Positions 41,701-61,309 of a DNA stretch of 64,000 nt are shown piece after piece. The stretch comes from Anadara kagoshimensis (lineage: Eukaryota > Mollusca > Bivalvia > Arcoida > Arcidae). The translations under genes and the position numbers were made by a program. The notes beneath the pieces were generated by a model. That model worked only from the letters and a program-made list of their open reading frames with translations. It had not been told where the DNA came from and searched no databases. The DNA is taken from contig JACFYK010000036.1 in the NCBI GenBank assembly GCA_021292105.1, positions 124,001 through 188,000 on the forward strand. The letters are read 5' to 3'. The stretch's first letter is position 1. Every line of letters starts with the position of its first letter.

Positions 41701-44700
41701 TAGTAGACAGCATGACTTTTAGAGAAGCACTGTTACAACACAACTATAGATCACCATATATAGACACATGGGATGTATACAGCCCATACAAGGTAGTTAT
41801 TGAATAAAACAAAATACATCATATTACAGTGCATAATCTAATATATAGTTTATGAACATTGTACGTTTACCACGCCTATTTTTTTCCTGGCTATACGTTT
41901 CGACAGCGTGTCATGGGATAACCACAACGTGTGTTTATGTCACTTATTCTAGGAATAATGCTAGTTTTATTGGATATTCATATCTTATCAGATTCCATAT
42001 CCAATGGAAGCTAAGATCCACATAAACATGAGGTATCACATGGACAAATCCGCTTTTAAATACCTATGTAAAATTATAGCTTCCTTGAGGGAATTTACCA
42101 ACGGTCTGGTCTTTATGTATTTTCCATGCACATAGAACCACTAAAATCGACCCATACCAATTACGTTATGTCGGGAAATCAGTACAAATAATAGTTCTCT
42201 TAAACATTAGATTAAACCAAATGGTACGCTTAAAACAGAACCTGCTGCGATGGCTGAATGTAAACCATATGACAAAGCATCATCATGCACCAGCGACTAA
42301 ATTACAAAGGCAGTGACGGAGCACCAACATGAACCAACGACTTACTAAAATGGACAATGTCACAACACAAGTGTGCGCCAGCGACATAACCGCAGGAATA
42401 ATGTCAGAGCACGTTTATGAACCAGTGACTTAATCACAAGGACATGCGTCTTTTATATCAAACTTGAATTTTGGAAATAAAAATGTAATTAAGGTGCTAA
42501 AGTGTTTAATAGATTTAAACAATCTAACAATTAATAACTTAATACAAAAAAGCTTACCATCTCCATTTTAATTAGGTATGTTTACTTACTCTCTGAGGAT
42601 CCAATCTTCAATGACCACACAAGTACAAGCTACAAGTCAAAATCTTCTTGAAATTTATATCAAAAAACAAACAGACAAGTCAATGTCAAAACAACAAATA
42701 TATTATTTTTTACAGATAGTGATGGGGGCATATAACCTATTTGGGGATGTTTTATGGCAGTTTAGTTTTGACACAGTTGGATCTACGTCACAGCTGTCAA
42801 GCTGGCTTACCAACGCTAGATATTTACACAGTTACCCGGATGAAATTACTCAATCAACCATTAGCTTTAGTATGTAAGTCATTGATACAATCATCCGCTA
42901 GGAACAATTGTCTCCCCTTGGCCGATTTGTTACATTCACCCCACCTGTATTAACTAGGTTAACAGTTCTAGTTCTCAATCTGTAAAATAATACATAATGA
43001 CAAAATAATAATAAGTGTAAAAAGGCAGTGGCAACAGTGACATGAACTAACCGGCTATAGGGTTTAGTTTTTCTAAAAAAAAAAGAAGAAAAAAACACTT
43101 TTTTATAAAATATAATTTTATAACTGAATTTACATTTACAAACTAGTTGTATATACCGTAGCTAGTTGAGTGAGAATTGTAAACATTGTTTAAACGGTTT
43201 ACATATTAAAAATGCCAACATATGTCAACATAAGTATTTATAAAAACACCGACTAAAATACAAGGTACAAATTTTAACAGTTTAGCTGTCAGAGCTTTAA
43301 ACAACCAGGCTTAGGTAATTTTTAATATTTCTGATATGAAGGTGTATGAAATGTGACATGGGCTAGGATGTTTATAAGGTCAAGTGTACCAAAACACGGG
43401 GTTCCGTTATAAACAGTATATTTTTGCAAAAAAGCTGATAGGATACTTAGAAAAATATATATTACTTGTCTATAATTTGGTTTTCACTGTAGTAGCTGAG
43501 TGCGATTAGTTCTCACTCGCTTGGTAAGTGGGAGGTCAGAGCTCGATACCCTGCAGGACCAGATCTGAGACTTAACATGAACAGTAAATACTCTTTTGTC
43601 AATCGAATTTCAACAAAGAAATCACGGGTTCCGTCGGCTGACACCATAACGACTCATTTGTCATGGCATGAAAAAGGACCTTAATTTTGCAAATTTCTTC
43701 AATATCACACATAGCTGGCGACGTCTAAAAATTAATGAAATAATATAACCAAACACACCTACTGTATTTATTTCCAGAAATTATGGAATCAGTGTCATCG
43801 CCGGCAGCTCTGATCAGCTTACAACGCTACTGAATGTTTCCATGGCAACTGGTCAATCGTCTATCGTCATTTTTACTGATGAGGTACCGGGTAAGTGAAT
43901 TCATTTTGAGTCAGTGTATATTCTATTGATACATTCTTTTTTCATTTTATTGAGTGTCTGTCCGAAGTAGGGATTGGTAAAGTGAACTATATCTCTGAAG
44001 TAGCTATATATCGATCGACAGCTTTTTCGGCCACAAGGTGACCATGGTTCCATCACTCGGAAGTAGCTATATATCGATCGACAGCTTTTTCGGCCACAAG
44101 GTGACCATGGTTCCATCACTCGGTAGCAGCTTTATATCGATCGACAGCTTTTTCGGCCACAAGGTGACCATGGTTCCACCACTCGGTAGCAGCTTTATAT
44201 CGATCGACAGCTTTTTCGGCCACAAGGTGACCATGGTTCCACCACTCGGAAGTAGCTATATATCGATCGACAGCTTTTTTCGGCCACAAGGTGACCATGA
44301 TTCCATCACTCGGTAACAGTTATATATCGATCGACAGCTTTTTCGGCCACAAGGTGACCATGATTCCATCACTCGTTGACAGCTATATATCGATCGACAG
44401 CTTTTTTCGGCCACTAGGTGACCATGGTTCCACCACTCGGTAGCAGTTATATATCGATCGACAGCTTTTTCGGCCACAAGGTGACCATGGTTCCACCACT
44501 CGGTAGCAGCTTTATATCGATCGACAGCTTTTTCGGCCACAAGGTGACCATGGTTCCACCACTCGGAAGTAGCTATATATCGATCGACAGCTTTTTTCGG
44601 CCACAAGGTGACCATGATTCCATCACTCGGTAACAGTTATATATCGATCGACAGCTTTTTCGGCCACAAGGTGACCATGATTCCATCACTCGTTGACAGC

Positions 44701-45628
44701 TATATATCGATCGACAGCTTTTTTCGGCCACTAGGTGACCATGGTTCCACCACTCGGTAGCAGTTATATATCGATCGACAGCTTTTACGGCCACAAGGTG
44801 ACCATGGTTCCACCACTCGGTAGCAGCTATACTAGTATATCGATCGACAGCTTTTTTTGGCCACTAGGTGACCATGGTTCCACCACTCGGAAGTAGCTAT
44901 ATATCGATCGACAGCTTTTTTCGGCCACAAGGTGACCATGGTTCCACCACTCGGAAGTAGCTATATATCGATCGACAGCTTTTTCGGCCACAAGGTGACC
45001 ATGGTTCCACCACTGGGTAGCAGTTATATATCGATCGACAGCTTTTTCGGCCACAAGGTGACCATGGTTCCACCACTCGGTAACAGCTATATATCGATCG
45101 ACAGCTTTTTCGGCCACTAGGTGACCATGGTTCCACCACTCGGTAACAGTTATATATCGATCGACAGCTTTTTTCGGCCACAAGGTGACCATGGTTCCAC
45201 CACTCGGTAGCAGCTATATATCGATCGACAGCTTTTTCGGCCACTAGGTGACCATGGTTCCACCACTCGGTAGCAGCTATATATCGATCGACAGCTTTTT
45301 CGGCCACAAGGTGTCCATGGTTACGTTAGCTCAGTGTTAAACCTTTCACAGGTCTGCTTTATACTGCGTTTTCCTGAGAAATTTTCAATTAAAAAATCCA
45401 TGATGGCCACCGTCATCGATTTTGTTTACCTCTTTCCTTCCGTCCGAAAGAAACATTTTCGTAAGTTTTCTCAGCAACCACTTAAAGGTTATCAGTTTTG
45501 TATTTTGCATTCCTATGGGTAGAGATGTCAATATTGTTGTGTCTCATTGTTTTACCCTGTAATACACTAAAATCTTACCTGAACAAACTGCTTATACTCG
45601 GTAATTTCCGTCACCGCTCGTAATTTTC

Positions 45629-45661
<33 letters not shown>

Positions 45662-48600
45662 ATTAAATTATTATTCAGTGTGGCTAAATTGACTCTTTAT
45701 TATGTATTTTTTTCGGAAAATAGTACTAAATTAATTCGGTTTTTGGTGACCGGTGACCTTTAACACAGCCACTCTCTTGAAATATTGTATCCAAGTTCAG
45801 TATGAGATCCCATGCTACACGTTCCGATTTCAAGGCTGCCAGACATCCTCTTCCTGTTTACAGACCTAGTGTATTTTTCGATATTTACAGTCAATGGTTG
45901 AACTTAAAAGCGAGGTATACTAAGTGAGAAGTAGCTCACATATTTCTTCTTTATTTTAGAGTTTGTACCGCCTTATCAGAGTGCCGGGTGTTACCACTAC
46001 ACATCAGTTTCTGTTGATGCTTCTACGAAGTTTACAGATACCATGATGGATGTTGAAGTGTGTCTACAAGCGTGCACTTCTAATTCTGCATCAACTCACT
46101 TCATGATTGAGGTAGGCAACAGTAATCATTAATGATATGGCAAAACGTGTGTCCGTACATACGCCTAGTAAACGTGTGTCCGTACATACGTCTAGTTAAC
46201 ATGTGTTCGTACATGCGCTCATGTATTGTGTGCCCGTACATGTGCCCATGTAACGTGTGTCTGTACATGTGTCCTTATAACGTGTGTCCGCACATACGTC
46301 TAGTTAACGTGTGTCCGTACATACGTCTAGTCAACGTGTGTCCGTATATAGGTCTAGTTAACGTGTTTCCGTACATACGTCTAGTTAACGGTAACGTGTG
46401 TGTGTACATGCGTCTAGTTAACGTGTGTCCGTACATACGTCTAGTTAACATGTGTCCGTACATGTATACGTCTAGTTAACGTGTGTCCGTACATACGTCA
46501 AGTTTACGGTAACGTGTGTGTGTGTACATGCGTCTAGTTAACGTGTTCGTACATGCGTCCAGGTAAAGGTAATGTGTGTTTGTACATGTGCCCATGTAAC
46601 GTGTCTCCGTACATACGTCCAGGTAACGGTAAGATGTGTCCGTGCATACGTTAAGATTATCTTTATCCGTTACCAAGCGCATGTTTTACAGCAATATCAT
46701 GAAAATCTGTTTAGATTTGTTTACATAAAGGATGGTAATAAAAGTGTTAAAACTGTGTTCAAGACCTAAGTAAAAGACAAATCCTTATATACTTGTTTTA
46801 GAAAGGATAATATCCAAGCATAGGATAACATTTTATCATCATATTCGGATACTCTAAGCGAGTTTTAAATTTCATGCCCGATTCTTTTATTATCATTATT
46901 ATTATTTCATTTGTTTTACACTATGTTTAATGTCATGTGTTATTATTACAATAGTATGTAATCTCCTATATGTATGCTAATTAAGTATTATAGCCGTTAT
47001 GGGAGGGTGGTGTTGGTAGTGGGGCGGTTCGAATTTTATCTAAACAGTAGGTAACGAAACACTTATTTCATGTGTTTTTTTGGAACTGTCAAATCCCTTG
47101 TCCATTGGGCTGGCCTAATGGATAAGACGCCAGTCTACAAATCCAGGCTGAGTTCGAGCCCCACTCAGACAACATGTGGGAAAGTAAATTTTCCTTGCCG
47201 TTGGCCTTTACTGGTTCACCTGGTATCAGTATAACGTGACTGGGGAGTGGTACTGACGCTTGTCTGCGGCGTACTGACTCTAAGCTCTAAGCACCGAGTG
47301 CGCGCCAGTACAAGGCAAACCATGAAACACACTCGCACTTCACATGCATACACGAACTTGTTCATAGATTAATCCATAGAATTTAATAAAATACTTCTCG
47401 TCGCAAATAGATGAAAAATTATTGATGCGACGTTAAGCAACATTTAACCAACCAACCTTGTCCATTGGCCTAGCTGTCTCGAGCAACGGTTCTGTAAGTC
47501 ATCCCTGATATATCTAGGCAATAGATTTGTCTTTTCCAAAACACCTATAAAATAACTATTTATTAACACCTATAAAACAACTATTCATTTTCAAAAAAAT
47601 ATTTTACAGTTACATAAGTCTAACCTGCTTTAAAAGGCCGTCTCTATTTAAGGACCACCTGTTTATAAAGGCCACGAAAATTGTATCTCAATTGTTCTTT
47701 ATCTATATTATTTTAACCTGTATATAAAAGCCACCTGGCCCCCGTTTCACAATCATTCCTTAGCTAAGATTTCCCTTCACTTAAATTTAGCAAATTTTGG
47801 TAATCTTTTTTTGGAACTACTGATGAATATTTCTGTCAAAACTAAATGCAAATGTTTGAATCTTGAGATAATCTTAAAAATCACACCTTAAATTCCTGAA
47901 TATTTTGAAAAATAACAAAGTTTTGAAGATTTGAAATTTTGACAGATTTAAGTTAAGGAAAATCTTAGCTAAGGAATGATTGTGAAACCGGGGCCAGCCC
48001 ATACTTGTTCCATTGGTTGGCCTTTATAAGCAGGTTTGACTGTTTTCCATACTCCATTTCAGTATAGGAATTTTTGTTCGTGTGGTACAATGGTACATCC
48101 AGATCGGCTAATCGCAGATTCTCAATGCCTTTATAGATGTCCTGGTAACGAGTTCCAGAGTTGTGGTGGAGTTAGTGGTATATATAATGTCTACAGCAAA
48201 AGTAAGTTAATCTCAAATTTGCATTACATAAAGTTCTCTATAAAACGTCTTGTATGGTAGAGTGGAGTCTAAGCACCAATCAAGCGACATTTATTTACAT
48301 CGAGATGTAACCAGTTATAGGTGCAGTCATAGTGTGTATTATAAAAATAAAGTCCAACCCGAATTAAAGGCCACCTCTAAATAAGGATCACCTACTTATA
48401 AAGGCCAGTAGAATTGTAGCTCATTTGTTCTTTTTTCATATTATTTGAACCTGTATATAAAGGCCACCTGCCCATAAAGGACACTTTTGTTGGTTCCCTT
48501 GGATAACCTTTATAGAAGATTTGCTGTAGGGTGAACTCGAATTTATTTAAAAAAAGTTATTGCTTAAATAAATACTTTTATTCAATGTGACTTTTATATA

Positions 48601-51600
48601 TCCAGATGTTGGTAAAATTAACCTAGAAATTTTATTGCACATCGAAAGGGAGGCTACTCTGTACAAACGATTTGAAACCTGCAACAAAAAAGATTTCATT
48701 CCATTATTATGCTCTTTGCTGTGGTAGAATTATTGTTATGACATTGTGTTCTCATGTTGTCCCGGGAAGCTGACCCTTTCGTTTTCTAACAGGAAGTAGT
48801 CTAAATCACACAGGAAGTAGTCTAAATCACACAGGAAGTAGTCTAAATCACACAGGAAGTAGTCTAAATCACACAGGAAGTAGTCTAAATCACACAGGAA
48901 GTAGTCTAAATCACACAGGAAGTAGTCTAAAGGCAAACAGGAAGCAGTCTAAATCCATACAGGAAGTGACAGTTGCTCAGAAGAGATTTTAATTTATCCT
49001 TTGCCGTTCTCAAGTTCAAATTTGCACTTTTTCCCTTTTTAAAAATTATCAAATGTTGATCTTTGATCTCAGGTCAGTAATATGGTGACATTATTTGAGA
49101 TTCAAAACAGTTATTTGCAAAGTCATATCTTAATACCCAATTCTCTTTACTTTGATGCAGCTACAAAAATATATGTAATTCCAAAATAAAGTCAAATATG
49201 ACCTGTAACATTAACCAAATTTGCCCGAACTGCAACTTATTGATAAGAAACATATACATGTATTTGCAAAAAGGTAGCCTCCTTTTACATTGTTCTTTAT
49301 TTACGCAATCTATCTTCAATGATGTAACAAGAAACAAACGATTTCACGCAATTGTTTTCGTGAAATTGAAATTGAAATTGGTGAATTCATGATATTATTT
49401 TGGATGAAGTAAAACGAACATCGTTAGCATAGAGTAGCCTCCCTTTCCACATACAGTTAAATGCGTGAACGATTTTTCTCAACATTCGTGTTGACAGAAG
49501 AATCCCATACTGACAATACTGCTTTTGGGATCATTTTATCAGCACTCATATTCAGAATAAATAGAATACTCGACGACCACTTTTGGGATGGGGTAGAATT
49601 TTCTGAATACAAGTGTGTCTTAGTAGGATATAAGATATTAACGTCCCAGTCAAGAATATTTCACTTATATCGAGACATCACCAGAAAAAGGTAAATTGAC
49701 AGATTTTTTTACCTTTGCAGTGCCCCCAGGGAGGGTTCTTAAATGTACCACGCCTACCGTGACACGTTTTTGTGGTATCACTAGAGTGCTGGACGAAAGA
49801 ACTGTTGCTGCCTATTTTCAAGTCTTGGTCAGACACGGCCAGGGATCGAAGCCCGATCTCCCGCATTCAGAGCAATGATTCTACCAACTAAGCTAACGTA
49901 TAGGAAATATAATTCAGTATATCTAGTATCTAATGGTTTCAGATGTGGTTGCATCGCCTCTCTTTCAAAAAACAGATGAAGAAGTTCCTTCAAGTTCGAT
50001 CACATACTTAGAATCCAATCTACATCAGGTTTGTATATAAACATGTGTTCATTTTGCCTACGTTGTGATATGATGTCTCCGGATACCCACCTTTATCCGT
50101 GTTGTTCCTAGGGCATGCTATTCTCCAAATATTGTTGTGACGTATTTTCCCACAGAGTTTGATAATTACAGTAAAACCTCGATTCATCGCCACCATTTGT
50201 TCAGTCAAATTTTGGCGTTATAAAGGGGTTTGGCAATAAATTGGGGGAAGTGGATAAAGAAAAACATAAACAAAATGGATTTGGGACTTTTAAATAGTGT
50301 GGTGATAAGCGAGACGGCAAATTTATCGAGGGGCTTTATAACGAGGATTTACTGTACATGTATATTGTTCCTAGATTAATGAAATATGTATATCATGTTA
50401 AAACACATCTCTAAAGTAGTTCCTGCAACTTTGACAACATAATTACAGTCCAATATGCACTAGGTTTGGTAAAATATATTTTGGTCCTTAGGGTAGCTTT
50501 TCAACATCTTAAATAATTTTGGTTTCATAAGTTTGGTCCAAGCACTACTGATGAGGAATTGTATTCCGAAACGGCCGTCTAGTGCTGTGAAATTAAAACT
50601 GGTATAATATGTAATTTGATAATGTTCGAAACTTACTCCTGAAGCCGTCTAGCTTAGTACGTATTTTCACGTTCACGATTTTATTCCTGTCACGGCTTTA
50701 TGATTTGCAATAATGACACTACAACAGAAGCGTAAAGATACAAATCAACTTTAATGTCATACCCGTGGCAGGTAACATGGACTCAAATAAGTAAACTTTG
50801 AAGAAGTTTATACTACTAATCTTTGGATACTGGGTATACAGGTAACATTTGGATAAAAAACTAAATTAAAAGGGTTATATTGCAGGTTGAGAGCAGTATA
50901 TACATGAATATATGCACATATACATGTCAAATCTTGTCTGACTATCCCCAAGTACTAAAATGTAGTCGGAAATGAAAGTTGTACCGCTAACATGCTAAAC
51001 AAGATATATAATCTAAACTTAACATTCAAATCTATGTCCCAATCACGATATCAAACCAATGTAAAATCTTTGAAACTAACAAATTAGGTTAAACACGTGA
51101 AGTTCCACCAGGTAAGTGAGGCCGAGAGATCTGGAAGTGCAATTACCGCCTGTTTAGCTAGCTTCACCCGCCACGTGTGTAATCAAAATTGACTGAAAGG
51201 AACATAACAGACTAGGCCGAAACCTTGCAAGTTGAGTAGTATATAATTGAAAATTAAAATAGTTTTACATGTCAAAGCTTTTCTGTCACACACAGGCATA
51301 AAATGCAGTAACGGCAGAAAGTTGGGCCGCTAACAAGCTAAAACAAATACCTGACTAGTTCCTTGTTTCTTCTCATACTTTTATCTTTTGGTTTTGGTGG
51401 AGAATGTTGAAACGCTAACAAACTAAATAAATCTCAATAGCTCTTTGTTTCCTTTCAAACATTGATTGATTGATTCTATATATCCATGTGTATATCTATT
51501 ACTATGTACTTATTTATTTTATTTTAATACTTTGTAGATAAACAACAGCGCCGGGATTCCTTTCTTTATAGATGGTATAGCCGTGACGGGTCCTTCTGAC

Positions 51601-54600
51601 ATGCCAGCAATATACTCTCTGTATTACAGCCCAGACTTCTGTACTTTAAATTCATCATTAGAAGGTTTTTATAAGTACCAAGATAACAACAGCTTAACGG
51701 TAGGTTTGAAATAAAATATCATAAACTAATAATATAAGCTGACCAAAGTTCGATGATTTCTTTCTCCGGCATACATAAAACCATTACTCTATTTCTCTTC
51801 CCATGTACTGTTTATTTCATGCAACTATTTTGTGAAAGAAGTATAAACGTTTAGGATATTTTTTCCAAGGTCTAAACATTTGAGGATGAATGAAAAAAGA
51901 ACGCTTCAAATAAGTTACACTTTGCCATTTTTAATCTTGCATACTAAACCGTGTCCAAATCATATACCAAAGCAAAGTAAAAACTATGAAAAACACAAGT
52001 TAAACACCCGAACTTCCACTAGGGAAGAGCTATCCTCTTACTTTTCAATATTTTCTAAGATAATGTAAATTATAACGATGTGTATAATCATGAGCATCAG
52101 TTTACAAAAATCGATTAAGGCAATGCTAATTAATAATTATTTTTGGGCGTTTCCCGTAATAAAGACAATGCCAGTTAATTATTTGTTTCAGGAGTTTCAC
52201 GTAATTTAGGCAGTGATCATTTTTACGGGCGTTTCCTGTAGTTAATTGTTTCAAATTGTTCCCATAATTTAGGCAATTGTATTTTAAGGCGTTTCCCATG
52301 ATTAAGGCAGTGGTAGTTAATTATTTGTTTAGGAGTTTCACATAATCTAGGCAATGATCATTTTTACGGGCATTTCCTGTAGTTAAGACAATGCTAGTTA
52401 ATTATTTGATTCAAATTGTTCCTATGATTTAGGCAATGGTATTTTTAAGGCGTTTCCCATGATTAAAGTAGTGGTAATTCATTATTTGTTTCAGGAGTTT
52501 CACGTAATTTAGGCAATGATCATTTTTACGGGCGTTTCCTGTAGTTAAGGCAGTGGTAGTTAATTATTTGATTCAAATTGTTCCTATGATTTAGGCAATG
52601 GTATTTTTAAGGCGTTTCCCATGATTAAGGCATTGGTAGTTCATTATTTGTTTCAGGAGTTTCACGTAATTTAGGCAATGATAATTTTTACGGGCGTTTC
52701 CTGTAGTTAAGGCAGTGGTAGTTAATTATTTGATTCAAATTGTTCCCATGATTTAGGCAATGGTATTTTTAAGGCGTTTCCTATGATTAAGGCAGTGGTA
52801 GTTAAGTATTTGTTTCAGGAGTTTCACGTAATTTAGGCAATGATCATTTTTACGGGCGTTTCCTGTAGTTAAGGCAGTGGTAGTTAATTATTTGATTCAA
52901 ATTGTTCCTATGATTTAGGCAATGGTATTTTTAAGGCGTTTCCCATGATTAAGGCATTGGTAGTTCATTATTTGTTTCAGGAGTTTCACGTAATTTAGGC
53001 AATGATAATTTTTACGGGCGTTTCCTGTAGTTAAGGCAGTGGTAGTTAATTATTTGATTCAAATTGTTCCCATGATTTAGGCAATCGTATTTTAAGTCGT
53101 TTCCCATGATTAAGGCAGTGGTAGTTCATTATTTGTTTCAGGAGTTTCACGTAATTTAGGCAATGATCATTTTTACGGGCGTTTCCTGTAGTTAAGGCAG
53201 TGGTAGTTGATTATTTGATTCAAATTGTTCCCATGATTTAGGCAATGGTATTTTTAAGTCGTTTCCCATGATTAAGGCAGTGGTAGTTCATTATTTGTTT
53301 CAGGAGTTTCACGTAATTTAGGCAATGATCATTTTTACGGGCGTTTCCTGTAGTTAAGGCAGTGGTAGTTAATTATTTGATTCAAATTGTTCCCATGATT
53401 TAGGCAATGGTATTTTTAAGGCGTTTCCCATGATTAAGGCATTGGTAGTTCATTATTTGTTTCAGGAGTTTCACGTAATTTAGGCAATGATAATTTTTAC
53501 GGGCGTTTCCTGTAGTTAAGGCAGTGGTAGTTAATTATTTGATTCAAATTGTTCCCATGATTTAGGCAATGGTATTTTTAAGGCGTTTCCCATGATTAAG
53601 GCAGTGGTAGTTAAGTATTTGTTTCAGGAGTTTCACGTAATTTAGGCAATGATCATTTTTACAGGCGTTTCCTGTAGTTAAGGCAGTGGTAGTAAATTAT
53701 TTGATTCAAATTGTTCCCATGATTTAGGCAATGGTATTTTTAAGGCGTTTCCCATGATTAAGGCAGTGGTAGTTAAGTATTTGTTTCAGGAGTTTCACGT
53801 AATTTAGGCAATGATCATTTTTACAGGCGTTTCCTGTAGTTAAGGCAGTGGTAGTTAATTATTTGATTCAAATTGTTCCCATGATTTAGGCAATGGCATT
53901 TTTAAGGCGTTTCCCATGATTAAGGCAGTGGTAGTTAAGTATTTGTTTCAGGAGTTTCACGTAATTTAGGCAATGATCATTTTTACGGGCGTTTCCTGTA
54001 GTTAAGACAATGCTAGTTAATTATTTGATTCAAATTGTTCCCATGATTTAGGCAATGGTATTTTTAAGGCGTTTCCTATGATTAAGGCAGTGGTAGTTCA
54101 TTATTTGATTCAAATTGTTCCCATGATTTAGGCAATGGCATTTTTAAGGCGTTTCCTATGATTAAGGCAGTGGTAGTTCATTATTTGTTTCAGGAGTTTC
54201 ACGTAATTTAGGCAATGATCATTTTTACGGGCGTTTCCTGTAGTTAAGGCAGTGGTAGTTAATTATTTGATTCAAATTGTTCCCATGATTTAGGCAATGG
54301 TATTTTTAAGGCGTTTCCCATGATTAAGGCAGTGGTAGTTCATTATTTGTTTCAGGAGTTTCACGTAATTTAGGCAGTGATCATTTTTACGGGCGTTTCC
54401 TGTAGTTAAGACAATGCTAGTTAATTATTTGATTCAAATTGTTCCCATGATTTAGGCAATGGTATTTTTAAGGCGTTTCCCATGATTAAGGCAGTGGTAG
54501 TTCATTATTTGTTTCAGGAGTTTCGCGTAATTTAGGCAATGATCATTTTTACGGGCGTTTCCTGTAGTTAAGACAATGCTAGTTAATTATTTGATTCAAA

Positions 54601-57600
54601 TTGTTCCTATGATTTAGGCAATGGTATTTTTAAGGCGTTTCCCATGATTAAGGCAGTGGTAGTTCATTATTTGTTTCAGGAGTTTCACGTAATTTAGGCA
54701 ATGATCATTTTTACGGGCTTTTCCTGTAGTTAAGACAATGCTAGTTGATTATTTGATTCAAATTGTTCCCATGATTTAGGCAATGGTATTTTTAAGGCGT
54801 TTCCCATGATTAAAGTAGAGGTAATTCATTATTTGCTTCAGGAGTTTCACGTAATTTAGGCAATGATCATTTTTACGGGCGTTTCCTGTAGTTAAGGCAG
54901 TGGTAGTTGATTATTTGATTCAAATTGTTCCCATGATTTAGGCAATGACATTTTTAAGGCGTTTCCCATGAATAAAGTAGAGGTAATTCATTATTTGCTC
55001 CAGGATTTTCACGTAATTTAGGCAATGATCATTTTTACGGGCGTTTCCTGTAGTTAAGACAATGCTAGTTAATTATTTGATTCAAATTGTTCCCATGATT
55101 TAGGCAATGGTATTTTTAAGGCGTTTCCCATGATTAAGGCAGTGGTAGTTCATTATTTGTTTCAGGAGTTTCACGTAATTTAGGCAATGATCATTTTTAC
55201 GGGCGTTTCCTGTAGTTAAGGCAGTGGTAGTTGATTATTTGATTCAAATTGTTCCCATGATTTAGGCAATGGTATTTTTAAGGCGTTTCCCATGGTTAAG
55301 GCAGTGGTAGTTAAGTATTTGTTTCAGGAGTTTCACGTAATTTAGGCAATGATCATTTTTACGGGCGTTTCCTGTAGTTAAGGCAGTGGTAGTTGATTAT
55401 TTGATTCAAATTGTTCCCATGATTTAGGCAATGGTATTTTTAAGGCGTTTCCCATGATTAAGGCAGTGGTAGTTAAGTATTTGTTTCAGGAGTTTCACGT
55501 AATTTAGGTAATGATCATTTTTACGGGCGTTTCCTGTAGTTAAGGCAGTGGTAGTTAATTATTTGATTCAAATTGTTCCTATGATTTAGGCAATGGTATT
55601 TTTAAGGCGTTTCCCATGATTAAGGCAGTGGTAGTTAAGTATTTGTTTCAGGAGTTTCACGTAATTTAGGCAATGATCATTTTTACGGGCGTTTCCTGTA
55701 GTTAAGGAAGTGGTAGTTGATTATTTGATTCAAATTGTTCCCATGATTTAGGCAATGGTATTTTTAAGGCGTTTCCTATGATTAAGGCAGTGGTAGTTCA
55801 TTATTTGTTTCAGGAGTTTCACGTTATTTAGGCAATGATCATTTTTACGGGCGTTTCCTGTAGTTAAGGCAGTGGTAGTTAATTATTTGATTCAAATTGT
55901 TCCCATGATTTAGGCAATGGTATTTTTAAGGCGTTTCCCATGATTAAGGCAGTGGTAGTTAAGTATTTGTTTCAGGAGTTTCACGTAATTTAGGTAATGA
56001 TCATTTTTACGGGCGTTTCCTGTAGTTAAGGCAGTGGTAGTTAATTATTTGATTCAAATTGTTCCTATGATTTAGGCAATGGTATTTTTAAGGCGTTTCC
56101 CATGATTAAGGCAGTGGTAGTTAAGTATTTGTTTCAGGAGTTTCACGTAATTTAGGCAATGATCATTTTTACGGGCGTTTCCTGTAGTTAAGGCAGTGGT
56201 AGTTGATTATTTGATTCAAATTGTTCCCATGATTTAGGCAATGGTATTTTTAAGGCGTTTCCTATGATTAAGGCAGTGGTAGTTCATTATTTGTTTCAGG
56301 AGTTTCACGTTATTTAGGCAATGATCATTTTTACGGGCGTTTCCTGTAGTTAAGGCAGTGGTAGTTAATTATTTGATTCAAATTGTTCCCATGATTTAGG
56401 CAATGGTATTTTTAAGGCGTTTCCTATGATTAAGGCAGTGGTAGTTCATTATTTGTTTCAGGAGTTTCACGTAATTTAGGTAATGATCATTTTTACGGGC
56501 GTTTCCTGTAGTTAAGGCAATGCTAGTTAATTATTTGATTCAAATTGTTCCCATGATTTAGGCAATGGTATTTTTAAGGCGTTTCCTATGATTAAGGCAG
56601 TGGTAGTTCATTATTTGTTTCAGGAGTTTCACGTAATTTAGGTAATGATCATTTTTACGGGCGTTTCCTGTAGTTAAGGCAGTGGTAGTTAATTATTTGA
56701 TTCAAATTGTTCCCATGATTTAGGCAATGGTATTTTTAAGGCGTTTCCTATGATTAAGGCAGTGGTAGTTCATTATTTGTTTCAGGAGTTTCACGTAATT
56801 TAGGTAATGATCATTTTTACGGGCGTTTCCTGTAGTTAAGACAATGCTAGTTAATTATTTGATTCAAATTGTTCCTATGATTTAGGCAATGGTATTTTTA
56901 AGTCGTTTCCCATGATTAAGGCAGTGGTAGTTCATTATTTGTTTCAGGAGTTTCACGTAATTTAGGTAATGATCATTTTTACGGGCGTTTCCTGTAGTTA
57001 AGGCAGTGGTAGTTAATTATTTGATTCAAATTGTTCCCATGATTTAGGCAATGGTATTTTTAAGGCGTTTCCTATGATTAAGGCAGTGGTAGTTCATTAT
57101 TTGTTTCAGGAGTTTCACGTAATTTAGGTAATGATCATTTTTACGGGCGTTTCCTGTAGTTAAGACAATGCTAGTTAATTATTTGATTCAAATTGTTCCT
57201 ATGATTTAGGCAATGGTATTTTTAAGGCGTTTCCCATGATTAAGGCAGTGGTAGTTAAGTATTTGTTTCAGGAGTTTCACGTAATTTAGGTAATGATCAT
57301 TTTTACGGGCGTTTCCTGTAGTTAAGGCAATGCTAGTTAATTATTTGATTCAAATTGTTCCCATGATTTAGGCAATGACATTTTTAAGGCGTTTTCCATG
57401 ATTAAGGCAGTGGTAGTTCATTATTTGCTTCAGGAGTTTCACGTAATTTAGGCAATGCTCATGTTTACGGGCGTTTCCTGTAGTTAAGGCAGTGGTAGTT
57501 GATTATTTGATTCAAATTGTTCCCATGATTTAGGCAATGGTATTTTTAAGGCGTTTCCCATGATTAAGGTAGAGGTAATTCATTATTTGCTTCAGGAGTT

Positions 57601-59395
57601 TCACGTAATTTAGGCAATGCTCATTTTTACGGGCGTTTCCTGTAGTTAAGGCAGTGGTAGTTGATTATTTGATTCAAATTGTTCCCATGATTTAGGCAAT
57701 GTTATTTTTAAGGCGTTTCCCATGATTAAAGTAGAGGTAATTCATTATTTGCTTCAGGAGTTTCACGTAATTTAGGCAATGATCATTTTTACGGGCGTTT
57801 CCTGTAGTTAAGGCAGTGGTAGTTGATTATTTGATTCAAATTGTTCCCATGATTTAGGCAATGGTATTTTTAAGGCGTTTCCCATGATTAAGGCAGTGGT
57901 AGTTAAGTATTTGTTTCAGGAGTTTCACGTAATTTAGGCAATGATCATTTTTACGGGCGTTTCCTGTAGTTAAGACAATGCTAGTTAATTATTTGATTCA
58001 AATTGTTCCTATGATTTAGGCAATGACATTTTTAAGGCGTTTTCTATGATTAAGGCAGTGGTAGTTCATTATTTGTTTCAGGAGTTTCACGTAATTTAGG
58101 CAATGATCATTTTTACGGGCGTTTCCTGTAGTTAAGACAATGCTAGTTAATTATTTGATTCAAATTGTTCCCATGATTTAGGCAATGGTATTTTTAAGGC
58201 GTTTCCCATGATTAAGGCAGTGGTAGTTCATTATTTGTTTCAGGAGTTTCACGTAATTTAGGCAATGCTCATTTCTACGGGCGTTTCCTGTAGTTAAGGC
58301 AGTGGTAGTTAATTATTTGATTCAAATTGTTCCCATGATTTAGGCAATGGTATTTTTAAGGCGTTTCCCATGATTAAGGCAGTGGTAGTTCATTATTTGT
58401 TTCAGGAGTTTCACGTAATTTAGGCAATGATCATTTTTACGGGCGTTTCCTGTAGTTAAGACAATGCTAGTTAATTATTTGATTCAAATTGTTCCCATGA
58501 TTTAGGCAATGGTATTTTTAAGGCGTTTCCCATGATTAAGGCAATGGTAGTTCATTATTTGTTTCAGGTGTTTCTCGTGATTTAGCAATGTAAATTATTT
58601 GTTTCATGCGTTCCCCTATGATTAAGGCAATGATAGTTAATTATTTGTTTCAGGAGTTTTGTGTGATTTAGGCAATGGTATTTAGTTATTTGTTTCAGGA
58701 GTTTATCGTGATTTAGACAATGTTAATCGTTCCCGTATGATTAGGACAATGAAAATTAATGATAAGGTTAATTATTTGTTTCAGATGTTTCTCGTAATTT
58801 ATACAATGGTTATCACCACTATAAATAAGGCAATGATAGTTAATTATCTGTTTCAGGAGTTTCCTGCAAATGGTTCATTAATACCACTTCCTCTTTTACC
58901 ATACAGCTGTGTTAGACTAGCAATGACGTCCGCCACCTGGAAAGTCGACAGTATATCTGTCACTTTATACTATCCAGGTATGGTTAAATATTTTATTCGG
59001 ATTTCGGGAATATCAAATATAATAACCTTAACCAAAGGTTTACACAAATAATCTGAATGAAATATGAATGCTATATTCAAGAAATTTATTTAAATTTGTT
59101 CAGAGATCTTAGCTATATGTTTAAGAGGGGTATACAATAAATGTACAATTATATGTGTACGGATTCGCCTGTGATAAGCGCCGCCAGTACGACTGAATTG
59201 TCCTTGGTAGCGTTACAAATATTTTACACCATCCGACACGTGAATGTCATTGTAAAATAATCTATACCACTTTTTACTTTAAACTCATAATTTGGTAAGA
59301 AATGTGTAAGTTTTATTTTGTTTACTTACATTATGTACATTCATTTTCAGACAAGTATACGAATGCACCCTTCTTCGTCATAGAGGGCGTTTATG
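33995..59395 (+). CDS. Gene 2: secreted or membrane protein with signal peptide and WSC domain
   Basis: Overall model of ten phase-consistent exons: 33995-34064, 41605-41792, 42716-42873, 43778-43890, 45960-46111, 48063-48201, 49943-50028, 51538-51699, 58857-58977, 59351-59395 (411 codons plus one base; open at the 3' end). Order: signal peptide (1-23), A-B-C module (24-176), WSC domain (about 187-273), D-E-F region, FFVIEGVY exon. WSC domains are small Cys-rich modules linked to carbohydrate binding. The gene is a tandem paralogue of gene 1 but has WSC where gene 1 has a second A-B-C module. The stalk/TM exon expected from gene 1 was not found before 64000; it may lie beyond, or the protein may be secreted. 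The start is chosen by the hydrophobic leader and an excellent GTAAGT donor. Confidence 0.82.
34505..34815 (-). repeat. R1 copy (minus)
   Basis: AGACCTAGGCTTATCAAGGTCC, GTCATCACAATATTGTTGATG, GGTTATATTTGAAGTCCC, TACCCTTCCGGAGCACTTGG, TCTTGGTGGAAGTTCACC blocks in reverse order. Confidence 0.75.
34929..35672. mobile_element. 744-bp near-perfect foldback (inverted repeat) element
   Basis: Arms 34929-35251 and 35351-35672 are near-perfect inverted repeats of about 322 bp around a loop of about 99 bp. Ends are TAGTCCGACTAATCAGACC and its complement. Only scattered differences are seen between arms. It lies in gene 2's first intron. The frame at 35488-35682 is an arm artefact. Either a foldback/MITE-type element or a recent palindromic duplication. 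Confidence 0.88.
35690..35935 (+). repeat. R1 copy, diverged
   Basis: GAATCATAATCCAAAAAGCA, GAGACCTGGTGATCCGG, GGGGTAAGTAC, GACGTCAAATATATCAAAG blocks. Confidence 0.65.
36140..36450 (+). repeat. R1 element, long copy
   Basis: Full block order as in 3610-3910: AATGTCCGAATCACAATTC, CACGTGAACTTCCACCAG, GGCCGGATGCTCCGAAAG, CCACGTGTTTAATC, ATATATCCAGGGCAATCC, CTTGATAAGCCTAGGCTTGC. Confidence 0.85.
36475..37010 (-). repeat. R2 cluster: one copy plus two tandem partial units
   Basis: Reverse R2 (ACATATGATACCAGTTTC, CACTAGACGGCC) followed by two related blocks near 36785 and 36905, each with CAGTTTTAATTTTACAGCAC, GACG, CAGCTGCA, ACTTTGGGGTATCCTAGGGG. Confidence 0.75.
37340..38440 (+). repeat. Tandem duplication, two units of about 550 bp
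   Basis: Paired blocks include AATTAATTTGTAGTTCGTC (37485, 38036), CTCGCTCGC (37651, 38171), TTTGTGAGGTGTAT (37745, 38270), AAAGATTCAGTAGATATC (37778, 38304) and GGAATTAAGAATTG (37884, 38411). The copies are diverged and each has its own A-rich expansion. Confidence 0.8.
38670..38782. repeat. Compound (CA)n(TA)n microsatellite
   Basis: Long CA run followed by a long TA/TATA run. Frames crossing it (HTHTH / YIYIY) are not genes. Confidence 0.97.
39134..39320. mobile_element. Palindromic MITE of about 187 bp
   Basis: Arms of about 75 bp with GTTAAATTTTCTTTTT, TATGGAAG and GAAAGAATTGGACATT on the left and their complements on the right; the central ACGCG/CGCGT-like core is itself partly palindromic. 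Confidence 0.8.
40145..40200. repeat. Short hairpin
   Basis: TGTCATGTGCTCCTTTTGAATG and its near complement CATTCAAAAGAAGCACACGACA, separated by about 14 bp. Confidence 0.6.
40205..40445 (-). pseudogene. Non-LTR retrotransposon (LINE) 3' remnant
   Basis: On the minus strand one frame reads GRVQTKSITHGRKEQGWT, a stop, then IVQQMAPDRQRWRSSVKALC. The A-x-D-R-x-x-W-R-x-x-V-x-A-L-C pattern is typical of the extreme C terminus of LINE reverse-transcriptase ORFs as I recall them. The rest of the element is absent, so this is a 5'-truncated, stop-containing fragment. Confidence 0.6.
40700..41222 (+). repeat. Dispersed repeat R4
   Basis: Starts near GGTTCAAAGATAGGGAGTAT and ends AGTGAGCAGTAGCTCACAG. 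Internal blocks: CGTCTGTCATTCCGTC, GTTTTCTCAGCAATTGACG, GTTTAGTATGAGGTTCC, GTCAAAGGTTGAAG. A second copy at 45400-45955 abuts the WSC exon. Confidence 0.75.
41375..41535 (+). repeat. Dispersed repeat R2, good copy
   Basis: GGTAAAATATATTTTGGTCC, GGTATCTTTTCAACAACTG, AGCACTACTAATGAGGAATTG, AGTGCTGTAAAATGAAAACTG. It ends about 70 bp before gene 2 exon A. Confidence 0.85.
41605..41792 (+). CDS. Gene 2 exon A
   Basis: Acceptor TGTCCATTGCAG, donor TACAAG|GTAGTT; phase 1 in, 0 out. Encodes 62 residues after split Glu: EVTKILLILQDQ to WDVYSPYK, with EKVYDAS aligning to the VYD of gene 1 exon 3343-3527. It lacks the two Cys of the gene 1 exon. Confidence 0.8.
42716..42873 (+). CDS. Gene 2 exon B
   Basis: Acceptor TTTTTTACAG, donor AGTAT|GTAAGT; phase 0 in, 2 out. 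Encodes 52 residues: IVMGAYNLFGDVLWQFSF to TQSTISFS, with GSTSQLSSWL matching the TWL region of gene 1 exon B. Confidence 0.82.
43488..43752 (+). repeat. SINE S1 copy
   Basis: GTAGTAGCTGAGTGCG-like head, GGTCAGAGCTCGATACCC (B-box-like), CATAGCTGGCGACGTC tail. It ends about 25 bp upstream of the next exon's acceptor. Confidence 0.7.
43778..43890 (+). CDS. Gene 2 exon C
   Basis: Acceptor ATTTATTTCCAG, donor CCGG|GTAAGT; phase 2 in, 1 out. Encodes 37 residues after split Ile: NYGISVIAGSSDQ to SSIVIFTDEVP. Counterpart of gene 1 exon 426-553. Confidence 0.82.
43975..45322 (+). repeat. Minisatellite, 63-64 bp unit, about 21 copies
   Basis: Unit blocks: GGTGACCATGGTTCCACCAC, TCGGTAGCAGCTATATATCG, ATCGACAGCTTTTTCGGCCA, CAA. 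Period 63 (sometimes 64) bp. Variants AGTAGC/AACAGT/GACAGC and CCACC/CCATC define subfamilies, and a block of four to five units (44230-44490) recurs at 44545-44790. Because 63 is a multiple of three, 21-residue repeats are open in several frames on both strands. Not a gene. Confidence 0.95.
45400..45955 (+). repeat. Dispersed repeat R4, copy interrupted by poly(A)
   Basis: Blocks TTCCTTCCGTCCGAAAG, GTAAGTTTTCTCAGCAACC, CAGTATGAGATCCC, TATACTAAGTGAGAAGTAGC, CTCACATATTTCTTC. A run of about 29 A lies at 45630-45659. The copy's right end merges with the 3' splice site of the WSC exon. Confidence 0.75.
45960..46111 (+). CDS. Gene 2 exon: WSC domain, N-terminal half
   Basis: Acceptor TTCTTTATTTTAG, donor TTGAG|GTAGGC; phase 1 in, 0 out. 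After split Glu: FVPPYQSAGCYHYT, then FTDTMMDVEVCLQACTS. This is the G-C-Y ... D-x-x-M-x-x-E-x-C-x-x-x-C pattern that opens a WSC domain. Confidence 0.87.
46135..46650 (+). repeat. Minisatellite, about 26-27 bp unit
   Basis: Unit blocks AACGTGTGTCCGTACATACG and TCTAGTT, about 18 imperfect copies, starting only about 25 bp after the WSC exon donor. Confidence 0.93.
47105..47460 (+). repeat. tRNA-derived SINE, family S2
   Basis: Head GGCCTAATGGATAAGACGCC and GCTGAGTTCGAGCCCCAC resemble a tRNA-Arg A/B box pair. Body with CCTTGCCGTTGGCC, tail TTGATGCGACGTTAAGC and AACCAACC. The tail is shared with 12400-12800. Confidence 0.75.
47625..48045 (+). repeat. R3 copy interrupted by a MITE
   Basis: R3 left part (CTGCTTTAAAAGGCCG ... 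ACCTGTATATAAAAGCCACC) to 47736 and right part (GCCCATACTTGTTCC ... GCAGGTTTGACTG) from 47997. The gap is exactly the MITE at 47737-47996. Confidence 0.8.
47737..47996. mobile_element. MITE of about 260 bp with about 36-bp TIRs
   Basis: Left end GGCCCCCGTTTCACAATC, ATTCCTTAGCTAAGATTT; right end is the inverted AAATCTTAGCTAAGGAATG, ATTGTGAAACCGGGGCC. The insertion splits a copy of R3, so it is younger than R3. The target duplication is unclear (CTG on one side, CAG on the other). Confidence 0.85.
48063..48201 (+). CDS. Gene 2 exon: WSC domain, C-terminal half
   Basis: Acceptor ACTCCATTTCAG, donor CAAAA|GTAAGT; phase 0 in, 1 out. YRNFCSCGTM, DSQCLYRCPGNEFQSCGG, IYNVYSK: the C-x-C-G ... C-x-x-x-C-x-G-x-x-x-x-x-C-G-G ... 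x-V-Y end of a WSC domain. All canonical Cys of this half are present. Confidence 0.9.
48355..48520 (+). repeat. R3 copy
   Basis: GAATTAAAGGCCACCTC, AGGATCACCTACTTATAAAGG, TTTGAACCTGTATATAAAG, TTGGTTCCCTTGGATAACC. Confidence 0.8.
48606..48727 (+). CDS. Candidate alternative terminal exon after WSC
   Basis: Acceptor TTATATATCCAG. Joined in phase 1 to the WSC exon it encodes NVGKINLEILLHIEREA, then YKRFETCNKKDF, and stops at TAG (48725). It would give a short soluble WSC protein. KINL echoes KINLGSG of gene 1 exon D, so it may be a decayed D-type exon. Low confidence without transcripts. Confidence 0.28.
48783..48970 (+). repeat. Minisatellite, 21-bp unit, about nine copies
   Basis: Unit ACAGGAAGTAGTCTAAATCAC. 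The first seven are near-perfect; the last two diverge. Each unit holds a GGAAGT core. The Leu-Asp-Tyr-Phe-Leu-Cys-Asp frame on the minus strand is a repeat artefact. Confidence 0.95.
49630..49905 (-). repeat. SINE S1 copy (minus)
   Basis: TTAACGTCCCAGTCAAGAAT, TTATATCGAGACATCACCAG, TTTTCAAGTCTTGGTCAGAC, ACCAACTAAGCTAACG. It ends 38 bp before exon D. Confidence 0.75.
49943..50028 (+). CDS. Gene 2 exon D
   Basis: Acceptor ATGGTTTCAG, donor CATCAG|GTTTGT; phase 1 in, 0 out. Encodes 28 residues after split Asn: VVASPLFQKTDEEV to TYLESNLHQ. Confidence 0.75.
50169..50354. mobile_element. Tigger/pogo-like MITE with TA target duplication
   Basis: TIRs CAGTAAAACCTCGATTCATC and, inverted, ATAACGAGGATTTACTG; flanked on both sides by TA (50167-50168, 50355-50356). 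CAGT-x-x-x-x-CTCG-x-TTA-type ends and a TA duplication are hallmarks of pogo/Tigger elements. 186 bp, no coding frame. Confidence 0.8.
50465..50620 (+). repeat. Dispersed repeat R2, good copy
   Basis: GGTAAAATATATTTTGGTCC, GGGTAGCTTTTCAACATC, CGAAACGGCCGTCTAGTGC, ACTGGTATAATATGTAATTT. Confidence 0.85.
51030..51215 (+). repeat. R1 copy
   Basis: TCTATGTCCCAATCACGATA, CACGTGAAGTTCCACCAGG, TGTTTAGCTAGCTTCACCCG, CACGTGTGTAATC. A short fragment recurs at 51950-52025. Confidence 0.75.
51538..51699 (+). CDS. Gene 2 exon E
   Basis: Acceptor ATACTTTGTAG, donor TTAACG|GTAGGT; phase 0-0. Encodes 54 residues with AGIPFFIDGIAVTGPS, YSLYYSPDFC and NNSLT. Clear counterpart of gene 1 exon E. Confidence 0.83.
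52105..58856 (+). repeat. 6.6-kb satellite array, about 162-bp higher-order unit, carrying splice-acceptor copies
   Basis: Higher-order unit of about 162 bp = two subunits of about 81 bp, each made of two related monomers of about 40 bp. Subunit 1: TTTCAGGAGTTTCACGTAAT, TTAGGCAATGATC, GGGCGTTTCCTGTAG. Subunit 2: GATTCAAATTGTTCCCATG, TTTAGGCAATGG, GGCGTTTCCCATG. About 40 copies by length. The homogeneous core runs about 52180-58560; edges are degenerate. The last monomer's TTAATTATCTGTTTCAG|GAGTTT is the actual intron end and start of exon F. Fills the intron between exons E and F. Confidence 0.95.
58857..58977 (+). CDS. Gene 2 exon F
   Basis: Acceptor TTATCTGTTTCAG, donor CCAG|GTATGG; phase 0 in, 1 out. 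Encodes 40 residues: EFPANGSLIPLPLL, PYSCVRLAMT, SISVTLYYP. Its first six bases and its acceptor match the satellite unit to the left. Confidence 0.82.
59351..59395 (+). CDS. Gene 2 FFVIEGVY exon
   Basis: Acceptor TTCATTTTCAG, donor TTATG|GTAAGA; phase 1-1. After split Asp: KYTNAPFFVIEGVY. Same position and phases as gene 1 exon 28254-28304. The next exon was not identified with confidence. Confidence 0.8.
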
Positions 59396-59544
59396 GTAAG
59401 AGTAAAATTTACTTCTTGATTTATTTTAAAAAACAATATTCTTTTAATTCAATAAATTTCCTCTTGAAGTGATGTATATATGTGCTGTACAATAGTCCAA
59501 ACCGCTTATAAATCTACTGATATTTTATTGATGTGGGTGTCTGT

Positions 59545-61305
59545 TTAATGGACCCATGGTTGCCTTGTACGCTGGGTATGTTGGCCCTAGTAGGCTATCT
59601 CATGCACTCTGTTTAATGGACCCATGGTTGCCTTGTACGCTGGGTAGGTAGGTCCTAGTAGGCTATCTCACCCATGGTTGCCTTGTACGCTGGGTAGGTT
59701 GGTCCTAGTAGGCTATCTCATGCACTCTGTTTAATGGACCCATGGTTGCCTTGTACGCTGGGTAGGTAGGTCCTAGTAGGCTATCTCACCCATGGTTGCC
59801 TTGTACGCTGAGTAGGTTGGCCCTAGTAGGCTATCTCATGCACTCTGTTTAATGGACCCATGGTTGCCTTGTACGCTGGGTAGGTAGGTCCTAGTAGGCT
59901 ATCTCACCCATGGTTGCCTTGTACGCTGGGTAGGTTGGTCCTAGTAGGCTATCTCATGCACTCTGTTTAATGGACCCATGGTTGCCTTGTACGCTGGGTA
60001 GGTAGGTCCTAGTAGGCTATCTCACCCATGGTTGCCTTGTACGCTGAGTAGGTTGGCCCTAGTAGGCTATCTCATGCACTCTGTTTAATGGACCCATGGT
60101 TGCCTTGTACGCTGGGAAGGTAGGTCCTAGTAGGCTATCTCACCCATGGTTGCCTTGTACGCTGAGTAGGTTGGCCCTAGTAGGCTATCTCATGCACTCT
60201 GTTTAATGGACCCATGGTTGCCTTGTGCGCTGGGAAGGTAGGTCCTAGTAGGCTATCTCACCCATGGTTGCCTTGTACGCTGAGTAGGTTGGCCCTAGTA
60301 GGCTATCTCATGCACTCTGTTTAATGGACCCATGGTTGCCTTGTACGCTGGGAAGGTAGGTCCTAGTAGGCTATCTCACCCATGGTTGCCTTGTACGCTG
60401 GGAAGGTAGGTCCTAGTAGGCTATCTCACCCATGGTTGCCTTGTACGCTGGGTAGGTTGGTCCTAGTAGGCTATCTCATGCACTCTGTTTAATGGACCCA
60501 TGGTTGCCTTGTACGCTGGGTAGGTAGGTCCTAGTAGGCTATCTCACCCATGGTTGCCTTGTACGCTGAGTAGGTTGGCCCTAGTAGGCTATCTCATGCA
60601 CTCTGTTTAATGGACCCATGGTTGCCTTGTACGCTGGGTAGGTAGGTCCTAGTAGGCTATCTCACCCATGGTTGCCTTGTACGCTGGGTAGGTTGGTCCT
60701 AGTAGGCTATCTCATGCACTCTGTTTAATGGACCCATGGTTGCCTTGTACGCTGGGTAGGTAGGTCCTAGTAGGCTATCTCACCCATGGTTGCCTTGTAC
60801 GCTGAGTAGGTTGGCCCTAGTAGGCTATCTCATGCACTCTGTTTAATGGACCCATGGTTGCCTTGTACGCTGGGTAGGTAGGTCCTAGTAGGCTATCTCA
60901 CCCATGGTTGCCTTGTACGCTGGGTAGGTTGGTCCTAGTAGGCTATCTCATGCACTCTGTTTAATGGACCCATGGTTGCCTTGTACGCTGGGTAGGTAGG
61001 TCCTAGTAGGCTATCTCACCCATGGTTGCCTTGTACGCTGAGTAGGTTGGCCCTAGTAGGCTATCTCATGCACTCTGTTTAATGGACCCATGGTTGCCTT
61101 GTACGCTGGGTAGGTAGGTCCTAGTAGGCTATCTCACCCATGGTTGCCTTGTACGCTGGGTAGGTTGGTCCTAGTAGGCTATCTCATGCACTCTGTTTAA
61201 TGGACCCATGGTTGCCTTGTACGCTGGGTAGGTAGGTCCTAGTAGGCTATCTCACCCATGGTTGCCTTGTACGCTGGGTAGGTTGGTCCTAGTAGTCTAT
61301 CTCAT
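59545..61305 (+). repeat. Minisatellite, 118-bp higher-order unit (50 + 68), about 15 copies
   Basis: Base unit CCCATGGTTGCCTTGTACGC, TGGGTAGGTAGGTCCTAGTA, GGCTATCTCA (50 bp). Every second unit carries an 18-bp insert TGCACTCTGTTTAATGGA and the TAGGTTGG variant. Sub-variants (TGAGTAGG, GGGAAGG) alternate in blocks. Near 60380 two short units adjoin without the insert, breaking the pattern. Confidence 0.96.
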
Positions 61306-61309
61306 GCAC

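Follow-up and report, generated by a model that had tools for sequence, protein, structure and literature searches.

Within the 64,000-nt stretch of the Anadara kagoshimensis genome analysed here (the window), one intron of a predicted gene contains a tandem array resembling the intron's own 3' splice site, and this array runs into the following exon. Two questions arise: whether the array was seeded from the intron-exon junction or the exon acceptor was captured from the array, and how an exon preceded by so many near copies of its own acceptor might be spliced. Like the mirages of amphioxus, the array repeats the end of an intron together with the start of an exon in tandem, AG signals included (PMC3087553). 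The explanation that we favor as a whole, and hold to be rather probable, is that of a mirage-type minisatellite, seeded from the junction, expanded as a 162-bp unit and carried as passive intron filler.

Predicted gene model and surrounding repeats

The predicted exons lie on the forward strand. Exon E (51538-51699, 54 codons) is an open frame between a consensus acceptor and donor (acg|GTAGGT), ends in phase 0 and has relatives at 9206-9376 and on C8. It would be joined to exon F (58857-58977), which starts with E-F-P-A-N-G, is entered in phase 0 and left in phase 1 (donor cag|GTATGG), as are its paralogs, here called F1 and F8. Exon G (59351-59395, donor atg|GTAAGA) has a similar stretch near 28253-28303 (9 of 16 residues). 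We infer from the sequence that exon F is spliced at 58857, an exon start supported by the two paralogs.

No Pfam family was found for the domain encoded by exons E, F and G, the best weak match (E=0.089) being to an unrelated model and at chance level. At least two such domains are present in the window (9206-10391 and 51538-59395), and another follows a WSC exon on C8; the prokaryote genomes scanned for relatives of exon E contained none. WSC matches number 45 in the genome, some of them clustered on C1 and C11, and the window contains the second half of a WSC domain (48063-48201), the domain being apparently divided between two exons. Otherwise this half-domain was the only Pfam match, scoring 26.6 bits, a little below the cut-off of 27.8.

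The locus has many local tandem arrays. A 21-bp repeat (48789-48967, 8.4 copies) begins after an acceptor-like TTTTCTAACAG and forms one open frame, which may be coding, with six GSSLNHT units that each contain an N-glycosylation-type motif. Upstream minisatellites are located at 44002-45322 (63-bp, 20.8 copies) and 46144-46651 (27-bp and multiples). Another array follows exon G (59540-61309) and is made of 50/68-bp repeats combined into a 118-bp higher-order unit that was found at this locus only. GTAGGT sites that look like donors number at least 33 in this array, and 15 score 4.7 or more; the donor of exon G itself lies outside it.

Anatomy of the array

Tandem Repeats Finder reported a single array at 52265-58683, with a period of 162, 39.6 copies and 95% matches. 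The motif TTATTTGTTTCAGGAGTTTC, allowing up to four mismatches, matched 44 times within the window, all on the forward strand between 52179 and 58844, and not once on its reverse strand; this count leaves out a copy near 52329 with a one-base deletion. The AG is intact in 43 of the 44 sites, that is, in 42 decoys and the predicted acceptor of exon F, and a single decoy has lost it. Thus the first-pass annotation, which had described about forty decoy acceptors over 6.6 kb ahead of the real one, is borne out by the count, and the repetition of acceptor signals expected of a mirage is present.

The 162-bp unit is itself a higher-order repeat, composed of submonomers of 37, 46, 34 and 45 bp that can be aligned with each other. 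Only the 45-bp submonomer has kept TTTCAG, with TTTCAGGAG; in submonomer B the motif reads ATTCAAA, and the segment is missing from A and C. The acceptor attributed earlier to each unit of roughly 162 bp is therefore right as a rule, with one TTTCAG-type decoy per unit on the forward strand, but holds for only one of every four submonomers.

Both edges of the array are irregular. On the left, a degenerate stretch of irregular monomers extends over 52110-52490 (limits set by eye). On the right, the 162-bp spacing holds as far as the site at 58555, after which copies are 40-86 nt apart, and the older period of about 45 bp persists beside the exon as irregular copies (58570-58815), with intact decoy exon starts at 58654, 58699 and 58785 and a broken one at 58608. 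The last monomer (58816-58864) extends across the predicted real acceptor, whose AG is at 58855-58856, and takes in the initial eight bases of exon F, GAGTTTCC. Between these edges the units are homogeneous, with a mean divergence of 4.2% among 35 regularly spaced central units, while the edge monomers are diverged. A homogenized interior from which the boundary units are excluded, the mark of concerted evolution in mirages, is what we found. For most of the 35 units the closest relative lies 1-5 or 12-25 units off, which is the pattern that repeated multi-unit duplication should leave. The progressive degeneration toward the exon that had been noted applies to the edge copies, which are degenerate indeed, but there is no smooth gradient and both edges are affected.

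Similarity between the array and the exon border

The junction, CCACTATAAATAAGGCAATGATAGTTAATTATCTGTTTCAG|GAGTTT, shares 43 of 47 aligned positions with an edge monomer (four mismatches, score 74) and 34 of 38 with the consensus 162-bp unit (four mismatches, score 56). A shuffle control, applied to the alignment with the unit alone, gave a mean score of 15.9 and a maximum of 25 in 500 mononucleotide shuffles. The similarity thus extends over 38 and 47 columns, far past a generic TTTCAG, and the match to the edge monomer agrees with the initial observation that the last unit is fused to exon F. As in a mirage, the repeat unit holds both sides of the predicted junction, exonic bases included.

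Two whole-genome DNA searches (1.115 Gb, 36 contigs), one with the unit and one with the right edge, found the array at this locus only; very common words are passed over in such searches, and their counts are lower bounds. A search of Rfam at gathering scores gave no match. To the left of the array, at 51940-52027, there is a short, unrelated dispersed repeat found on many contigs, with at least 504 first-look candidates, of which 40 were scored.

Direction of the resemblance

The paralogous domains offer a way to see which of the two, exon or array, had the shared bases before. The upstream domain of the window consists of exon E1 (9206-9376), which ends in phase 0, and exon F1 (10253-10391, LSTFQADG..., acceptor ATTTTATATCAG, sequence LSTFQADGNRISFNTIPFKCIWL), both on the forward strand and separated by a phase-0 intron of 876 nt. 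The paralog on C8 (L046) follows a WSC exon. Its exon E8, which ends in phase 0, is separated by a phase-0 intron of 793 nt from F8, which begins at TTTTTGTTCAACAG|GAATTTCCAAATGATGG and reads EFPNDG. Neither the E1-F1 nor the E8-F8 intron gave any match to the satellite sequence. In the predicted models, F, F1 and F8 are all entered in phase 0 and left in phase 1, and all three share one invariant phenylalanine, glycine and cysteine as well as two invariant prolines; the start of F1, which has kept the phenylalanine, is two codons before that of F and F8.

These two paralogous domains, the only ones found, are at 24 and 28% identity distant from the focal domain. Their relatedness was assessed by shuffling (n=5000, with a floor of p=0.0002). 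With E-F-P removed, exon F resembled F8 at p=0.003, and the F-F1 and F1-F8 pairs were both at p=0.0002. For the preceding exon the values were p=0.0002 (E-E1), p=0.003 (E-E8) and p=0.22 (E1-E8, not significant). A genome-wide search with exons E, F and G as the query recovered only its own exons. The C8 paralog came from nine regions beside WSC exons, chosen among the 45 WSC matches and examined with a query that included EFP; exons E and F were present in this one region and the other eight contained no convincing E or F exons. Weak protein matches on C5 (L049) and C13 (L053) were inspected and judged to be due to chance.

Both paralogs are free of the array, and the position of their phase-0 intron is that of the focal one or differs from it by no more than two codons; the first codons of exon F therefore look ancestral. 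The exonic bases in the repeat hence resemble ancestral coding sequence, an origin that the two distant paralogs suggest, and the junction probably gave rise to the array, instead of the array giving the exon its acceptor. The first-pass annotation had proposed such seeding and left capture open as the alternative; the similarity beyond TTTCAG, the single locus and the apparently ancestral codons speak for the former, and the paralogs make the latter the less favored.

Under capture, an older satellite would have grown in the intron until a deletion or fusion placed its last TTTCAG beside exon F. The resemblance of the junction to a whole monomer agrees with this, as a fusion would look locally alike, but both paralogs have the phenylalanine and the phase-0 intron and C8 even has E-F-P, so that the ancestral residues would have had to come from the array, and in the right frame, by coincidence; nor did the two whole-genome searches reveal a source array elsewhere. 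We regard capture as unlikely. An arrival from outside, by a dispersed bivalve satellite or a Helitron-type element with central repeats landing beside the exon, has a parallel in Pacific oyster elements reported to carry satellite-like repeats (PMC7492417). This origin was rejected: copies at several loci would be expected, and whole-genome DNA searches, for which unit, right edge and left flank served as queries, located the array at this locus only (counts being lower bounds), the left flank is a different dispersed repeat and the repeat includes coding bases of exon F, all of which leaves it very improbable. Equally little credence can be given to an exon F that starts elsewhere, for example after the pyrimidine-rich stretch ending in the AG at 58905-58906, in which case the array would not be at the exon border. 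By its sequence (it was not scored), CCACTTCCTCTTTTACCATACAG does resemble a good acceptor, but a phase-0 join with exon E would give CTG TGT TAG, a stop, and F1 and F8 put the intron at E-F-P or two codons before it.

The sequence of events that we propose for a junction-seeded array begins with a segment of about 45 bp, comprising the E-F intron's 3' end together with the first eight coding bases of exon F, which would have been duplicated in tandem away from the exon. Four diverged copies of it would then have become the 162-bp higher-order unit, whose number would have risen to about 38 through duplications of several units at a time.

Decoy acceptors and splicing

If exon E were joined to a decoy, translation would read exactly E-F-H-V-I and then stop in 36 of the 42 cases, and five others are variants ending in V-I and the stop, so that a stop at codon 6 is found in 41 of 42. 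The outcome foreseen in the first description is thus correct for nearly all decoys but not for the nearest one (exon start 58785), which has lost the stop, is located 72 nt upstream of exon F in the same frame and remains open into it, adding 24 residues.

By a rough acceptor profile, 28 of the 42 decoys score at least as high as the predicted real acceptor (median 4.49 against 2.43). The profile is weak, given that 114 of 2721 other forward-strand AGs outside the array also reach the score of the predicted real acceptor and that the scores of ten predicted acceptors extend from -0.86 to 6.44. To this extent the local sequence agrees with the earlier statement that the cell has to ignore about forty acceptors. 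The acceptor does not stand out as conserved within the unit: a 20-nt window at it ranks at the 34th percentile of variability, and a wider one of 28 nt is more variable than the remainder (0.037 vs 0.023).

Donors were scored with a likewise rough profile that separates sites poorly. None of the 596 GT sites of the array reaches 4 bits (best 3.52), compared with 4 of 303 in the 46.6-51.5 kb region and with scores of 4.75 for exon E and 5.59 for exon F. Three of nine predicted donors also fall below the best GT of the array (D1 1.70, E1 1.52 and F8 2.25), and the 596 sites are copies of a few, so that their weakness is not independent evidence.

The copies have acceptors without a strong donor and 41 of 42 stop after five codons, and for these reasons the array would most likely be passive intron filler. 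Exon F would be spliced at the last acceptor through exon definition, as most decoys have no good donor within normal exon length, the donor of exon F being up to 6.6 kb away. The three nearest intact decoys are not excluded by exon definition: from the exon starts at 58654, 58699 and 58785 the donor of exon F is at 324, 279 and 193 nt. The order of events, their neutrality and exon definition as the mechanism are what we infer for this array.

The decoys might instead regulate the gene, as the first-pass annotation had suggested in speaking of tuned expression, joins of exon E to the array giving a truncated mRNA that is destroyed, or the site at 58785 giving an isoform with 24 more residues. 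The 42 intact AGs, 28 of them scoring no lower than the predicted real site, the stop at codon 6 in 41 and the nearest decoy, in frame, open and with an exon of only 193 nt, are compatible with such a role. We nevertheless think it improbable: the unit shows no notable conservation at the acceptor positions, the acceptor survives in only one submonomer out of four, the array has no strong donors and the precedent of the amphioxus mirages, where Adh3 data and globin RT-PCR suggest that regular splicing is undisturbed, points to no interference (PMC3087553). For the Adh and TnC mirages the PGBD5 paper likewise states that no aberrant mRNAs are generated (PMC3902484). Still more doubtful is a working bank of splice sites in which the 42 acceptors compete with exon F, copy number sets the amount of productive mRNA and 58785 yields the longer isoform. 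Under that reading the acceptor array might also, in combination with the donor-like repeats that follow exon G, favor back-splicing of exons F and G into a circular RNA.

Comparison with known boundary repeats

The 31-bp VNTR of human CBS is reported to affect splicing, and Lievers reportedly linked it in 2001 to lower enzyme activity. This VNTR, c.1444_1467+7(16_21), has 16-21 copies with, by its notation, 24 exonic and seven intronic bases (PMC2630376). It is like the array described here in being a tandem repeat across an exon-intron border that repeats a splice site, but is found on the donor side and has a uniform 31-bp unit (PMC2630376). The VNTR of ABCA7, given as an example of an intronic VNTR that alters splicing, is likewise an intronic minisatellite, for which the text on ABCA7 mentions no origin from a splice junction (PMC5954066).

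The closer relatives are in amphioxus. Judged by its sequence, the array is a large, higher-order acceptor-side mirage, of a kind already described there. It shares with those mirages the homogenized center and the exclusion of boundary units, and with BflGb6 the duplication of the acceptor side (PMC3087553; PMC3902484). Mirages are also reported to be unstable in length; the copy number given here is that of one assembly. It differs from BflGb6 in size, with 42 decoys over about 6.6 kb against six and three units in the two BflGb6 haplotypes described, and from amphioxus mirages in having a 162-bp higher-order unit derived from monomers of about 45 bp, only eight exonic bases per monomer and in being known from genomic sequence. 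The literature searched, as far as its accessible parts go, contained no junction-built repeat in a mollusc nor one of such copy number, which does not prove their absence.

The intron is a natural experiment in splice-site choice, with 42 acceptors closely like the predicted real one placed upstream of it. If exon F is still cleanly spliced, local acceptor sequence can hardly be the selector, and exon definition or distance must be. The locus also suggests that higher-order satellites can arise from intron-exon borders in genes other than those of amphioxus for which boundary repeats were described.
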